Shown: in pieces, positions 42,881 to 49,172 of the stretch | How positions within the stretch are numbered: position 1 is the stretch's first letter | Layout of the letters: every line of letters begins with the position of its first letter | NCBI RefSeq assembly: GCF_000970285.1 | Contig: NZ_CP009516.1 | Coordinates: 3,203,036 to 3,267,035, forward strand | Length of the DNA stretch: 64,000 nucleotides | DNA from: Methanosarcina horonobensis HB-1 = JCM 15518 | GTDB lineage: Archaea > Halobacteriota > Methanosarcinia > Methanosarcinales > Methanosarcinaceae | Direction: 5' to 3' | Notes under the pieces: generated by a model | The model's input: only the letters and a program-made list of their open reading frames with translations | Told to the model about the DNA's origin: nothing | Databases searched by the model: none | Translations under genes and position numbers: made by a program

Positions 42881-44775
42881 TTCTGCCTATGGACTTTGAG
42901 TTCTCTCAGGGCCTCGCTGCACTTGCAGGGATAATTCCCCTTACAATCATATACCTGCTCAGGCCCCGCCCAAAAAACATTATTCTGCCTTCCCTTATGT
43001 TTGTTCGAAGGATAAGCCAGAACAAGCTTGATTCCAGGCGCACTATCACTAAAAGAATAACAGATCCCTTATTTTACTTACAGTTACTTGCTCTTATTCT
43101 CCTTTCAACAGCAATTGCGGGCCCGCTTATAGATGACGTTAAAGCAGATGCTCAAAAGGTAATAATTATAATAGACTCTTCTGCGAGCATGACAGTTCCT
43201 GACCGTATCGGTGAAGCCAGGTCAATAGCAATAGACAGCCTGGGTGAGGAAAACACGATTACCGCTGCAGAAAGCATGCCTGTAGTGCTTGCAAAGAATC
43301 TGAATGCAAAGGATGCGGAAAAAGTAATTAACGGCATGGAGGTAAGAGACACCCCCTCGGATGTTCCCAGAGCCATTTTGACAGCTATAAACGAAAAGGA
43401 GAACGAGTATGGGAAAATCGTAGTCATATCCGATTTTGAAACCTGGGAAGGAAGGGTTCCTGAAACATACATAAGAATCGCAAACACGAAAAATATGGAG
43501 CTTGAACTCAGGCAGGTAGGTAATAGAACTGCCAATTATGCAATTGTAGACGGTTATTTGAAGGACAGCAATGACGGGACATATGAATATACATGTACTA
43601 TCAGAAACTTTAATGACAGAAGCGCAAAACTTGATGTGCAGCTGGAGAGTAACTCTGATACTGCTTCCGGTACAAAAGTCAGCAATTCTGTACAGCTTGC
43701 AGAGTACGGATCTCAGCAGATAAAGTTTTCAAATATCCCTCAGGGTATATCAACTGTGAAAATCCTCAATGAGGATGCAGTACTCTGTGACAACATCGCT
43801 TACATCTCAATCCCTGAGGTCAAACCCAAAAAAATCCTGGTATTGACAGATCCTGAGAAGGCTGCAGGCAAGTCTCCTCTGATAACTGCAATATCCCTGC
43901 TGCCCGATATTCAGGTCGATGTACAGCAGGACCTTCCTGATAATGCTACAGAATATGATACTATAATTGTAAACTCAAAACATAAATCTCTTCCAGCCAA
44001 AGATGCCCTGGAAATTGCAGCTTATGCAAAGAACGGAAAAGACATTATTGTCATCGGAAACGAGTGCCTGTATGATTCATTACAGATGCATGGGCTTTAC
44101 TCCGTCCTTCCGGTAGATATAGTTTCAATAGAAGAAAAAGGCAGTTACACAATAGAGACCGTGGGAAGTGGAAAAGCTATTTTTGATGATGTATCATTCG
44201 GTGAGGTCTATCTGCGCAAATTGCTTGCCACTATACCTAAAGAGGATGCTGCAATCCTTGTAGAAGCCGGAGGAGCTGGACCTCTGGTCTGCATGCAGAA
44301 CATAAACGAAGGAACAGTAACCTATGTAGGGTTCAGTGACACTACCGAGACCGACGCATGGAACAATTTCGCTACTACTCCTACCTACCCTGTGTTCTGG
44401 GCAAAACTCCTCAGATACATGTGGGGAATCGATGATATAAGCGAAACAAATGTGAAAACGGGCAGGTACCAGGCATTTGACCAGACCGTCAGAGTTAAAA
44501 CCCCTACGGAAACTGTCAGCAGTGATTTCGTCTATTACGATGAATGCGGATTGTACGACCTTAACCAGAAGATAATTGCTGCCAACCTGTATGATTCCGG
44601 CGAATCAAATACCTTTACCGAAAAAAGGCTAAACCTGACAGGTGAGAATGGAGGTATCGAGAAACAGGACCTTCATACAGTATCCCCTGAAAGACCCAGG
44701 AAGTACATTATTTACATCTCATTTCTGCTCCTTATAGTTGAGAGTGCAGTTATGTTAAGGAGGAAGATCATATGA
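42877..44775 (+). CDS. BatA-like membrane protein with vWA domain, 632 aa
   Basis: GTG at 42877 overlaps the upstream stop; ATG 42889 is an alternative. N-terminal BatA region with helix (LAALAGIIPLTIIYLLRPRP, then YLQLLALILLSTAIAG), a vWA domain with DSSASM near residue 97, a long extracytoplasmic or cytoplasmic body, and a C-terminal helix. The stop overlaps the next ATG (ATGA). Confidence 0.82.
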   Translation: MILPMDFEFSQGLAALAGIIPLTIIYLLRPRPKNIILPSLMFVRRISQNKLDSRRTITKRITDPLFYLQLLALILLSTAIAGPLIDDVKADAQKVIIIIDSSASMTVPDRIGEARSIAIDSLGEENTITAAESMPVVLAKNLNAKDAEKVINGMEVRDTPSDVPRAILTAINEKENEYGKIVVISDFETWEGRVPETYIRIANTKNMELELRQVGNRTANYAIVDGYLKDSNDGTYEYTCTIRNFNDRSAKLDVQLESNSDTASGTKVSNSVQLAEYGSQQIKFSNIPQGISTVKILNEDAVLCDNIAYISIPEVKPKKILVLTDPEKAAGKSPLITAISLLPDIQVDVQQDLPDNATEYDTIIVNSKHKSLPAKDALEIAAYAKNGKDIIVIGNECLYDSLQMHGLYSVLPVDIVSIEEKGSYTIETVGSGKAIFDDVSFGEVYLRKLLATIPKEDAAILVEAGGAGPLVCMQNINEGTVTYVGFSDTTETDAWNNFATTPTYPVFWAKLLRYMWGIDDISETNVKTGRYQAFDQTVRVKTPTETVSSDFVYYDECGLYDLNQKIIAANLYDSGESNTFTEKRLNLTGENGGIEKQDLHTVSPERPRKYIIYISFLLLIVESAVMLRRKII

Positions 44776-47351
44776 CCTTCGATTTTCCTTATGGTTTTAA
44801 TTTTTTACATATAAGCGAACTTATGCTACTGGGTCCTCTGGCACTGTTTGTGTTTTTGGGTCTCTGGAAAAAGATTGATAGAAGACATCTGTTCGTCCAT
44901 TCCCTTGTAATCTTTTTCCTCATTATTGCTCTTGCTGCACCTTATTCCGTGGAAATGAGCTCTCCAAAAACCAACCAGTCAAGAATAACCATAATCTCTG
45001 ATGAAAGTGCCAGCATGGATCTGCTGGAAAAGGGAGTCTCCAAAGAGGTTGCAGATGAGCTCAATACAAGGGTCCCTGTTGCAGTTACAACGATTTCAGG
45101 GATTCATACCTCTCTTGGGGATGCTATTATCCAGCAGGCTTCACCTGAAAATTATGTGCTTGTAATATCGGACGGACAGAGCAATTCAGGGACACCGGTT
45201 GAGGAAGCTCTCTCCTACTGTTATAAAAATAATTTTCCTGTCTCTGCTCTTATCCCCAGGACTGTTGAAGAAGATCTGAGTGTGGAGATTGAAGGAGAAA
45301 ACGAGGCTGTAATCGATAATAAGGCTTTTTTCAAGGTTAATGTCCGGAAATCAATTGAAGACAGGATGAGTTATCAGGTAAGAATTACAATCGACCATCA
45401 AAAAGTACTGGAGAGAGAAATTACCCAGACAGGAAGAGTAGAAAGCATAGAATTCAATCACACGTTTGAAACGCTTGGGCCTCACACCGTAAAGGCAACC
45501 CTCCATCCTGCCAGTATCAGTGTTAAAAATCTGGATTATTTCGAGAACAATAACCAGTATATGAAAAGTGTATACGTAACTCCCAAACCAAAAGTCCTGC
45601 TCGTTACAAATGAGCCCGACTCTCCTCTTGCAAACACAATGAAAGAGATCTACGACGTAAGAATAGCCGGATCCTTCAGTTCTCTTAACAATATGGATGC
45701 CGTAATAATTGACAATCAGGCCGCATCAACTATATCGGATATTGAAACCCGAGCCCTCAGAGATTATATCATTAACGGAGGCGGCATGGTAGTGATTGGA
45801 GGTGGGTCCTCTTTTGATTTCCCTGCGGAATATACATACAAGGACACAAGGTTTGAGGAACTCCTTCCTGTTACCTCGGAGCCCTCGAGCTGGAGAGGAG
45901 GCAGAAACGTTGTCCTTATGCTTGATGTTTCTCCCAGTACTCTGCAGAGCAATGGTGTAGGAGGGAGGGTTCTTGACGAGATTCTGTCAAATGCAGTTGT
46001 CCTTCTTGAAAGTGATCTTCTTAAAGATGCAAGAGTCAATGTGATCACTTTCGGGAGTAAAGGACAGGATATTACAAACGGGTTCGTAGATATGTCAAAA
46101 GAGTCCAATAGACTCTGGCTTGATGCTGAAATCCGCAAAATATCGCCTACTGGAGACTCCACGTCTCTTGAAAGGGGGCTCATGACTGCACGAACACTGC
46201 TTAAAGAGCAGGAAAACAATTCAGAAGCTGACATCATAATCGTATCTGATGGCGGGATAGGTAACATAGCTGAAGGGGATCTGAGGTTCGAACGGGCAAT
46301 CCAGTGTGCGGAAAATCTTCACGAAAACAGTGGCATTGGAATTCACTTTGTTCACATACATGCTCCAAAAACCACCAGCCAGGTAACTCCAAAGGGGCAG
46401 TACTATGCCGAACTCTTCATGAACAAAATAGGCCTGTCACAAAATTACAATAGAATAGAGCCCGGTGAGAGGATAAAAGTAAGTTTCTCTAAAAATCCCG
46501 AGGAATCCGAAGAACTGGAGAACGAATACTCTAGCGGGTCAATTGTTGTTTATGACCCTAAACATTTCATTACCCGGAACATTTCCGACATACAGCATGA
46601 TATTCTGGGATATAATGAGGTCACCCCGAAACCAGAAGCAAATCGCCTGGTTATAACAAGGCTGGGCAAGCCTATAATTACAGTCTGGAGACTGGGACTG
46701 GGCAGAGTTGCTGCGATTACAACCGACAACGGAAACGGAAATGGAATCCCCTGGGCGGCATCCCTGTACTCAGGAAACGACAGTCTGATAATTACCAGGA
46801 CTCTGAACTGGGCAGTTGCAGATACGGAGATGTCTGAAGGTATCCAGCTGGAGGTGCCTGACCTTAAAATGAGTCAGCCTGGTAGAATCCTGATTACGAC
46901 AGGAGGAACAGGTGTGCCTGAACTTTATTTTGACAAAAAGCCAATGGAAATCACATCCATTGGAAATAACATGTACGAATCATACGTTACAGCCAATACT
47001 TTCGGACTCCATAAAATTTCAGAAACCCCTCTTGAAGCAAATCTGACCGAGGAGTTAATGTCCGAAGTTTCTGGAGTTAAGAACGTATCCTGGAGACCTG
47101 CTGCTGTAAACCGTCCAGACGAATATACGTACGTAGGAGAAAACTTTCTCTTCAGAACAGCAATACTTGAAAATGGCGGGAAAATCTATACAAAAGGAGA
47201 TGTCTACTCAAGGATAATAGAAGACGCTTCGATCAGTACAAAGAAAAAAATCCTGACAAAGGTCTTTTATACAAAATATTTCCTTGTGCTCGCTTTCCTG
47301 ATATACCTGCTCTACACCCTGCATCATACATATAATACACGCATGAAATGA
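44772..47351 (+). CDS. large vWA / glutamine-amidotransferase-like membrane protein, 859 aa
   Basis: N-terminal helices (LLGPLALFVFLGLW, FFLIIALAAPYSV), a vWA-like segment with ISDESASMDLL, an amidotransferase-like fold (GGGMVVIGGGSSFDFPAEYT) and a second vWA with MLDVSPSTLQ. Ends with a helix (FLVLAFLIYLLYTLHH). Last gene of the five-gene MoxR operon. Related to BatB/DUF1355-type proteins; substrate unknown. Confidence 0.8.
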   Translation: MTFDFPYGFNFLHISELMLLGPLALFVFLGLWKKIDRRHLFVHSLVIFFLIIALAAPYSVEMSSPKTNQSRITIISDESASMDLLEKGVSKEVADELNTRVPVAVTTISGIHTSLGDAIIQQASPENYVLVISDGQSNSGTPVEEALSYCYKNNFPVSALIPRTVEEDLSVEIEGENEAVIDNKAFFKVNVRKSIEDRMSYQVRITIDHQKVLEREITQTGRVESIEFNHTFETLGPHTVKATLHPASISVKNLDYFENNNQYMKSVYVTPKPKVLLVTNEPDSPLANTMKEIYDVRIAGSFSSLNNMDAVIIDNQAASTISDIETRALRDYIINGGGMVVIGGGSSFDFPAEYTYKDTRFEELLPVTSEPSSWRGGRNVVLMLDVSPSTLQSNGVGGRVLDEILSNAVVLLESDLLKDARVNVITFGSKGQDITNGFVDMSKESNRLWLDAEIRKISPTGDSTSLERGLMTARTLLKEQENNSEADIIIVSDGGIGNIAEGDLRFERAIQCAENLHENSGIGIHFVHIHAPKTTSQVTPKGQYYAELFMNKIGLSQNYNRIEPGERIKVSFSKNPEESEELENEYSSGSIVVYDPKHFITRNISDIQHDILGYNEVTPKPEANRLVITRLGKPIITVWRLGLGRVAAITTDNGNGNGIPWAASLYSGNDSLIITRTLNWAVADTEMSEGIQLEVPDLKMSQPGRILITTGGTGVPELYFDKKPMEITSIGNNMYESYVTANTFGLHKISETPLEANLTEELMSEVSGVKNVSWRPAAVNRPDEYTYVGENFLFRTAILENGGKIYTKGDVYSRIIEDASISTKKKILTKVFYTKYFLVLAFLIYLLYTLHHTYNTRMK

Positions 47352-47610
47352 CAGTATCCAGAAGTAATCCCGAACCAAAGGCAGCCAGGAAGTGCAGGCA
47401 GTATAAGAACACACATCCAGAGAACAGTAAACTCAGAGATATGAAGTAACTTGCAGTTAAACACTTAGCAATAATTAGATACCTTAGTAATAAATATATT
47501 TTTGTTATATCTGCAATTACAGTAGTTTAATGGTATAATATTAAACTAATAAACTAAAATTAGAGAGATCGGCTAAAAAATAGAGCATTACTATAGTATT
47601 ATGTGTTAAA

Positions 47611-47622
47611 AATATTATATAT
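47611..47622 (+). promoter_or_regulatory. TATA box of ncRNA copy A
   Basis: AATATTATATAT begins 31 bases before the predicted 5' end of the RNA at 47642. The matching element of copy B begins exactly 31 bases before its 5' end, supporting both as promoters. Confidence 0.5.
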
Positions 47623-47641
47623 GATGAAGATCTTGTATAAA

Positions 47642-47809
47642 TTGCGTTCTCATCTCTGAACACCCCACTAGCAAACACCTACTTCAAAACCTACTCCACA
47701 GTAAAGAGATGAAATAAAACTCTCACCCACAATACCTCAAACCTCTTCCCAAACAAAAAAATCTCTCAGTACCTAGGAACTTCCAGATATTTTTCAGATG
47801 GGAACGCAA
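47642..47809 (+). ncRNA. structured non-coding RNA, copy A
   Basis: 168-nt segment without an open frame. The ends TTGCGTTCTCATCT and AGATGGGAACGCAA pair over 14 bp with one G-U. Inside, AGAGAT (47704-47709) can pair with ATCTCT (47761-47766), and GGAACTTCC forms a small hairpin. A homologous copy lies 970 bases downstream with the same pairs. Loops are rich in A and C with conserved ACTAGCAAA and ACCTCAAACCTCTTCCCAAA. Function unknown; not recognised as RNase P, SRP or a snoRNA. Confidence 0.65.
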
Positions 47810-47933
47810 CCTCATTTTAAAACCATGCATGTCTCAAGCCTTTTTGGTATTTCTTTTTAGCAAAGAGCTCAACAAGTATAGTTTTTTCAGTGGTTAAATT
47901 AATAAAAATGGTATTGGATAATGAACGAAGCTG

Positions 47934-48332
47934 TCAGATTAAAAGAAGAGGAGTTGAACAGTAAAGAAAAGCAAAACCGGGCTGGAGTATTTCCGTATTG
48001 CAATCGTAGTAAACAGAAAAAAGATTGGAAGGACAGATCCAGAGAACTCCAGCATCAGGGTTTCCGGAAATAAAGCTGTCACTACTTTTGTTAAAACATA
48101 GAGTTTCGTTTTCAGGCCAGGTTGTATTTGAAAAGTTGCCTGATGCTTTTGTGCTGTTATCGTCTCCGTAATCTTCGAGACTCAATAGAAGGGGATCTTC
48201 TGTGAGATAAGGCCCTGCAGGATATGTCAGTACTCCTTCTTTAATTACAGTCCCTTGTGGCACGGCATCAGCAGAGTTTGCTGCTATCAATATCCCAATG
48301 GTCAGTATTAGAATTAAATTAAATCTTTTTAT
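47934..48332 (-). CDS. secreted hypothetical protein with apparent AUA start
   Basis: About 132 residues. From the ATA at 48332 the product begins with an ideal signal peptide (KRFNLILILTIGILIAANSA, then DA). GGAGGG lies six bases before it. The first canonical in-frame codon is TTG 48290, which would cut away the signal sequence. The rest is acidic with sequons (NSTKASGNFSNTTWPENET). Family not recognised. It lies between the two ncRNA copies on the opposite strand. Confidence 0.5.
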   Translation of the reverse strand: MKRFNLILILTIGILIAANSADAVPQGTVIKEGVLTYPAGPYLTEDPLLLSLEDYGDDNSTKASGNFSNTTWPENETLCFNKSSDSFISGNPDAGVLWICPSNLFSVYYDCNTEILQPGFAFLYCSTPLLLI

Positions 48333-48582
48333 GCCTCTCCCTCCGCAGGTTCAGGAAAACGATACTGATTAAAGATTAATTTTAGCTCAAAATCTTATCT
48401 AAGAAATAGGTTAAGTATTATATATCATTTTTTAAAAACTCGAGTAAATATATTTCTAATGATGCGTTTTTATTGAATGGAAGCCACACACGATTTATGT
48501 ATTTCTATATGATTATATTGACGATGGAATATTATATGCATACACTAATGAATATACGGTTACAATTATATTAGTAGTTGGA

Positions 48583-48595
48583 AATAATATATATA
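48583..48595 (+). promoter_or_regulatory. TATA box of ncRNA copy B
   Basis: AATAATATATATA starts 31 bases before the predicted RNA 5' end at 48614, the same spacing as copy A although the bases between have diverged. Confidence 0.5.
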
Positions 48596-48613
48596 GTGAA
48601 TGCGTAGTATAGT

Positions 48614-48814
48614 TTGCGTTCTCATCTTAACACCAAACTAGCAAAGACCTATTCCAAAAGACCTACTTCAACATCCACTCCGAAAAACTACCCCACAAGC
48701 AAAGAGATAACACAAAACTCACAGCCTATGAGTCAAGTACCTCAAACCTCTTCCCAAAAACAAATACATCTCTTATAAATATTCGGAATTTCCAAGATTC
48801 AGGTGGGAACGCAA
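48614..48814 (+). ncRNA. structured non-coding RNA, copy B
   Basis: 201-nt homologue of copy A. Terminal stem TTGCGTTCTCATCT with GGTGGGAACGCAA keeps all pairs; one A-U has become G-U. The inner AAGAGAT/ATCTCTT helix and GGAATTTCC hairpin are preserved, while a 30-base insertion lengthens the left half. A T run (CCTTTTTT) follows the stem at once, as expected for archaeal termination. No open frame. Confidence 0.65.
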
Positions 48815-49172
48815 CCTTTTTTCAAAAACGAAATCATTCTTCAGGATTTTTAGACAAACACTCACATTATTACAGATATATTTGATGGATAAAAGGATCT
48901 TTAAGATATGTGAAGGATAAACAAACGTATAAGTATAATCAAAACTGCTTTTGAGATATTTAAGTTGCTTTTGAGACGATGCTTAAAAAACAGGAGAGCA
49001 TGATTTTAGAAAGTCAATCATGCAGCTGATATGTTTGAAATAAACGAAGAAGATAACTAAAAAGTACGGAAACACTATAGAAAAAAATAGCACTAAAAAA
49101 GGAAAGTGAATTAATAAAGGAAAGTGGATTAATTTTAGTAGTGTTGATGTAACTCAGTTACATGGATAACAC
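48815..49172. other. intergenic region
   Basis: AT-rich, no supportable gene. The only short open frames lack ribosome sites. Confidence 0.5.

Follow-up and report, generated by a model that had tools for sequence, protein, structure and literature searches.

A genus-wide, multicopy family of probably regulatory non-coding RNA genes in Methanosarcina

Mechanisms are known for few archaeal regulatory RNAs, and Methanosarcina, a methanogen amenable to genetics, is a genus in which they can be pursued. In M. mazei, sRNA162 and sRNA171 are intergenic, about 190 nt long and present as duplicated homologous copies, and sRNA162 masks a ribosome-binding site (PMC3510493); sRNA154 and sRNA41 are further regulatory precedents from the same genus, as reviewed (PMC5867862). 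The LhrC1-5 RNAs of Listeria monocytogenes are five homologous copies, each with three redundant CU-rich sites placed in loops and in a single-stranded stretch, and the copies appear to act additively (PMC4132741).

The locus described here resembles sRNA162/sRNA171 in belonging to the same genus, in being intergenic and duplicated, and in the similar length of its RNAs, and sRNA162 likewise contains a single-stranded linker. The window (the whole 64,000-nucleotide stretch of Methanosarcina horonobensis DNA that was analysed) carries two RNA copies, A and B, between a gene with a von Willebrand factor A (vWA) domain (44772-47351) and a zinc-finger/AI-2E-transporter gene group. The initial annotation regarded them as twins with long conserved blocks, and the two are indeed alignable over most of their length and share an identical 18-mer. 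Their parts are as follows.

47595-47640 (+): promoter of copy A, with operator-like ATTATGTGTTAAAA, BRE/TATA (AATATTATATA from 47611) and proximal TATAA (85-copy upstream profile)
47642-47812 (+): RNA copy A, the A-type gene on the upstream side of the tandem pair
47642-47655 (+): copy A, terminal stem P1, 5' strand (fold and family stem pairing)
47678-47698 (+): copy A, two CCTACTYCA boxes spaced 12 bases (box counts against shuffles)
47703-47710 (+): copy A, purine segment AAAGAGAT, which could pair either with ATCTCT 5' (47652-47657) or with ATCTCT 3' (47761-47766)
47733-47750 (+): copy A, conserved loop box TACCTCAAACCTCTTCCC, the shared 18-mer (CTCTTCC counts)
47776-47784 (+): copy A, conserved GGAACTTCC box (45-copy alignment; GGAACTT in 47/85 copies, 1.1 expected)
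47796-47809 (+): copy A, terminal stem P1, 3' strand (fold and family stem pairing)
47810-47818 (+): copy A, T-rich putative terminator CCTCATTTT (family T-run profile)
48567-48612 (+): promoter of copy B, with ATTAGTAGTTGGAAA, AATAATATATATA from 48583 and proximal GTAGTATA (family upstream profile)
48614-48817 (+): RNA copy B, the B-type gene on the downstream side of the tandem pair
48614-48627 (+): copy B, terminal stem P1, 5' strand (fold and family stem pairing)
48648-48670 (+): copy B, boxes CCTATTCCA and CCTACTTCA (box counts against shuffles)
48701-48708 (+): copy B, purine segment AAAGAGAT, with partner ATCTCTT at 48768-48774
48738-48755 (+): copy B, conserved loop box TACCTCAAACCTCTTCCC (shared 18-mer; box counts)
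48785-48793 (+): copy B, GGAATTTCC box (45-copy alignment)
48801-48814 (+): copy B, terminal stem P1, 3' strand (fold and family stem pairing)
48817-48822 (+): copy B, putative terminator T6 (sequence; family profile)

A short, secreted-looking ORF lies between the two copies on the opposite strand (47934-48326, -); it is kept in close relatives (L080, L081) and has no Pfam match.

The home genome (G000, 5.02 Mb) holds six copies, not two: besides A and B there are three clustered at a distance of about 58 kb and a single one at 1.37 Mb. A covariance model of the kind suggested in the initial annotation was built from 45 copies and run over 186 genomes of the order, where it found 145 copies in 35 genomes, 1-9 per genome, with RNA lengths of about 170-210 bases. 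Copies are present in 31/31 Methanosarcina genomes and in 4/4 genomes of the sister genus, and none was found in the 151 other genomes of the order, including the other 77 of the family. Copies A and B, both of which were in the model's own training set, score 153.9 bits (E 2.2e-29) and 171.5 bits (E 5.4e-33). In a pattern scan of one genome each from 84,980 species, matches fell only in Methanosarcina-titled records or unclassified Euryarchaeota bins. An exact-pattern scan of the IMG/VR viral contigs gave no match, and a virus origin was rejected on this ground. The initial description of a pair thus understates the case, because the home genome has six copies and the family is genus-wide; judged from sequence, this is a real multicopy family of non-coding RNA genes. 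One genome (G010; L095 and other contigs) carries nine divergent copies, some apparently distant from the three usual loci, which looks like a local expansion.

The three usual loci are distinct in their neighbours. Locus 1 is the tandem A+B pair adjoining the vWA gene, locus 2 is a cluster of 1-3 copies convergent with an FAD-dependent oxidoreductase gene, and locus 3, common to both genera, has one copy, with an HTH gene and a CobW GTPase gene nearby. In the home genome, two locus-2 copies are separated by an IS200-like transposase gene (L076:7402-7866, -). At locus 3 (L077:7708-9796) two small winged-helix-like proteins flank the CobW GTPase gene beside the RNA in both genera, and the first of them has weak Pfam similarity to HTH_45. 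Copy A has orthologues at the same locus in other genomes, and copy B is 87-92% identical to its orthologues in 10 species. In 20-base windows, orthologue identity is mostly 75-99% within the element and quickly drops to 20-40% in the downstream flank, while upstream the conservation reaches about -130.

The following statistics on stem, promoter, boxes and reading frames, as well as the tree, are based on 85 distinct copies. The 14-bp terminal stem seen initially in both copies is a property of the whole family: the 11 core pairs of UUGCGUUCUCAUC/GAUGRGAACGCAA form standard pairs in 99.0% of cells, where slid controls give 29-51%, and the homologues, whose loss of pairing would have spoken against the initial reading, keep this stem. 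Its variation is mainly U-A/U-G exchange, with both sides changed in seven cells. The exchange of A-U for G-U noticed between the twins is real and common, one pair being U-G in 49 copies, U-A in 34 and C-G in 1. The plus strand is the RNA, because a U-G on this strand would be an A-C on the other. Compared with 200 dinucleotide shuffles each, the fold of copy A surpasses all of them (z -3.64) and that of copy B surpasses 194 (z -2.24). Selection on an RNA with its pairing kept, as expected of an independent small RNA gene, is seen in the stem and in the drop of conservation outside the element.

Inside the stem the picture is different from one lineage to another. When RNAalifold was applied to 45 copies, the terminal stem was the sole predicted element, and one universal inner fold was accordingly rejected. 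For the purine segment AAAGRGAU there are three possible partners: a 5' AUCYCUUU, with a perfect 8-bp match in 14 copies (A-type, locus-3-type and sister-genus); a 3' AUCUCUU, mainly in the species group of the home genome; and the CUCUUCC box itself, among the B copies from the second main species group. The AUCYCUUU/AAAGRGAU helix shows C-G/U-A exchanges; over all copies its pairing is no better than in controls, and this second helix is a possible switch. The AGAGAT/ATCTCT helix of the initial annotation is favoured mainly in relatives of the home species and is variable or broken in several; it competes with the 5' ATCYCTTT pairing of the same strand. The sequence of the GGAANTTCC hairpin, also proposed there, is strongly conserved, and the hairpin has no covariation support. 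The inner helices are thus lineage-specific, with no single conserved fold.

Each gene has a conserved archaeal promoter to itself, and its end is rich in T. The spacing noted at the outset stands, since in both copies an A-T-rich TATA region begins 31 bases before the RNA. In the family as a whole, TTAWATA occurs at -27 in 63/85 copies and TATAA at -6 in 76/85, and the upstream profile is at least 90% conserved at most of the positions from -33 to -21 and from -9 to -3, reading ATTAtntGTTAAAAATATTATATA ... CATAGTATAA immediately 5' of UUGCG. Such a promoter at a fixed distance from the RNA is what an independent small RNA gene should have. A run of at least four T's lies near the 3' end in 78/85 copies, and copy B does end in a T run, of six T's, as first described. 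Farther upstream, ATTA/TAAT half-sites recur at roughly helical intervals to about -130 in most copies (47490-47610 in the window), with near-palindromes such as GTTTAATGGTATAATATTAAAC among them, and this region looks like a candidate multi-site binding region for an apparently dedicated regulator. In five genomes the operator-like variant TAACATTATGTGTTAYA occurs almost only upstream of family copies. The one exception (L135, G026:C51:1874-1890), with one mismatch, adjoins no recognisable RNA gene and may be a further site at which that regulator acts. Upstream of position 1507 in L028 the block GTTTAATGCTATAAGGTTAAACCATTAAAGAAAAA is tandemly duplicated in that species, which suggests an operator duplication.

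The loop is rich in A (39.5%) and poor in G (11.7%), and it carries conserved boxes. CTCTTCC is found in 69/85 copies (2.4 expected from shuffles), TTCGGAA in 58/85 (0.6 expected), and CCTAYTYCA-like boxes average 1.38 per copy where shuffles have 0.16. The RNA is probably a regulator. Our leading reading, held tentatively and with somewhat less than even confidence, is that these are genus-wide, independently transcribed, non-coding sibling RNAs that act in trans, their boxes pairing imperfectly with a few mRNAs. Each RNA would be transcribed from its own promoter, and the 11-14-bp terminal stem would join the ends, probably protecting them, and hold open a G-poor, mostly unpaired loop of about 140-180 nt. 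The working surface would be the short, conserved pyrimidine-rich boxes CCUACUCCA (up to four per RNA), ACCUCAAACCUCUUCCC and UUCGGAACUUCCAG, which may recognise a small set of mRNAs through imperfect base pairing, like the redundant CU-rich sites of multicopy sibling sRNAs. Copies under different promoters would give an additive output, and the AAAGRGAU segment could mask or free the boxes. We favour mRNA pairing because of the analogy with LhrC (PMC4132741) and with the mRNA-targeting sRNAs of the genus (PMC3510493, PMC5867862).

The searches yielded no target, which speaks against this reading, as does the lack of a single inner fold. The proposal that the loop is an antisense surface for G-rich Shine-Dalgarno (SD) sequences found no support: the complements are not enriched and the duplexes are no better than those of shuffles. 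Loop-SD pairing over 85 copies was no better than in dinucleotide shuffles (mean z +0.39), and the same held for target prediction against the 18 real ribosome-binding sites of the window. The 10-nt complement GGGAAGAGGT, family copies excluded, gave counts of 16, 18, 17 and 11 in four genomes where the control gave 17, 19, 10 and 15, and 2 of 30 checked sites were positioned like an SD, as an SD-like sequence would be by chance. Perfect matches to the complement of the 18-nt loop box were the family's own copies only, and with three mismatches allowed the matches were no more frequent than for the reversed-pattern control, so that near-perfect long mRNA targets of this box were rejected as none exceeded chance. 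The longest complements to 16S/23S rRNA were 8-10 nt, equal to those of shuffles, and rRNA pairing was also rejected. A specific target may be reached through an imperfect duplex.

The sharing of the boxes by most paralogues would be explained equally well by protein binding, and a role as a protein-binding RNA (a sponge or RNP scaffold) comes close behind as a reasonable, somewhat less probable alternative. Here the CCUACUCCA, CUCUUCCC and GGAACUUCC boxes would bind a pyrimidine-specific protein, and the number of copies together with the control of their promoters would set the extent of its titration, in the manner of CsrB/RsmZ acting on CsrA/RsmA. The presence of the same boxes in most paralogues and in both genera fits this, as do the varying number of CCUACUCCA-like repeats (0-4 per copy, with four in tandem in L017), the lack of enrichment of the box complement in genomes, and a loop kept unstructured and G-poor. 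Against it, there is no candidate protein, and sites bound by proteins are typically shorter and more uniform than these boxes. A more specific version, which we consider rather unlikely, is a lineage-specific archaeal multicopy titration RNA in which an end-closed, G-depleted loop with repeated pyrimidine boxes sequesters an RNA-binding protein, its output being tuned by locus-specific multi-site promoters. We know of no archaeal CsrA and of no CsrB-like titration logic in Archaea; if this version were true, such logic would exist in Archaea with different motifs and a different protein.

Turning from pairing and titration to coding, we consider it very improbable that the RNAs are small mRNAs encoding short proteins, although part of the reported M. 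mazei sRNAs were proved by Ribo-seq to be translated (PMC11456600) and copy B has a mechanical 54-codon frame with a TTG start. This frame qualifies the initial statement that no open frame is present, which holds in the sense that none is kept across copies. The best frames of the 85 copies are 9-77 codons long and differ in their start codons, ATG is absent from 12/85, any stop-free frame exists in 11/85 only, and the conserved blocks are maintained by stem pairing rather than by codons. The small-mRNA reading was rejected on this analysis, and the lack of a conserved frame agrees with independent small RNA genes.

A cis-acting leader or riboswitch of the downstream gene is harder still to credit. 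In both genera the locus-3 copies do precede an HTH and/or CobW GTPase gene in the same orientation, but the locus-1 and most locus-2 copies have no close co-directed downstream gene and each copy ends in a T-rich stretch, and this locus arrangement led us to reject it.

Finally, in a tree of the 85 copies, a single clade (support 0.89) holds all 27 B copies together with four copies not assigned to a locus, all 12 locus-2 copies form an exclusive clade of their own (0.88), the six locus-3 copies cluster with seven unassigned ones (0.885), and the A copies divide into two species groups. Because the copies sit at three conserved loci and the tree groups them by locus, they are paralogues of long standing, inherited vertically, rather than a repeat that spreads. 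The least credible explanation of all is a MITE whose terminal inverted repeats mimic an RNA stem: the elements are multicopy and non-coding with inverted repeats at their ends, and the transposase gene at locus 2 might be cited in its favour, but tree grouping follows the syntenic locus and not the genome, the same loci rather than unshared, scattered insertion sites are occupied across species and genera, the promoter upstream of the repeat is conserved, the U-G at one stem pair in 49/85 copies would be a mismatch in DNA, and no viral contig matched the exact pattern; a mobile element was rejected on synteny and tree.

We regard imperfect pairing with mRNAs as the preferred reading, and a conserved, multicopy, uncatalogued RNA in 31/31 searched Methanosarcina genomes is a direct test case for archaeal regulatory RNA; the shared multi-site promoter, in addition, points to a candidate new regulator. 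Rfam release 15, the search of which had been suggested initially, misses this large lineage-specific archaeal family: at the gathering threshold the sole match in the whole window was a tRNA, under relaxed settings nothing reached E<=5 at the locus of copies A and B, and nothing reached E<=1 in loci with divergent copies. The family is not described in the open literature searched, the scope of which ended short of the primary papers on M. mazei dRNA-seq, sRNA154 and sRNA41, where individual copies may already be listed under sRNA numbers; as a family with a model, a distribution and a promoter it appears undescribed.

Compared with the closest systems, sRNA162/sRNA171 have three stem-loops and a 39-nt linker, with no terminal closing stem described, whereas the present family has a terminal-stem fold. 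They are also flanked by ArsR and MM2442-type genes, which were not found beside the present family, as checked in a 4.14-Mb Methanosarcina genome (G007) used as the nearest stand-in; this separation is by described fold and neighbours, not by sequence comparison. CsrB and RsmX/Y/Z are, like the present RNAs, multicopy with repeated short motifs in exposed positions, but their motif is GGA (PMC4132741), whereas here pyrimidine-rich boxes sit in a G-poor loop. The LhrC1-5 RNAs are bacterial, have two stem-loops, no end-to-end stem and known targets, and we claim no homology to them; what they share with the present family is homologous copies with redundant CU-rich sites.
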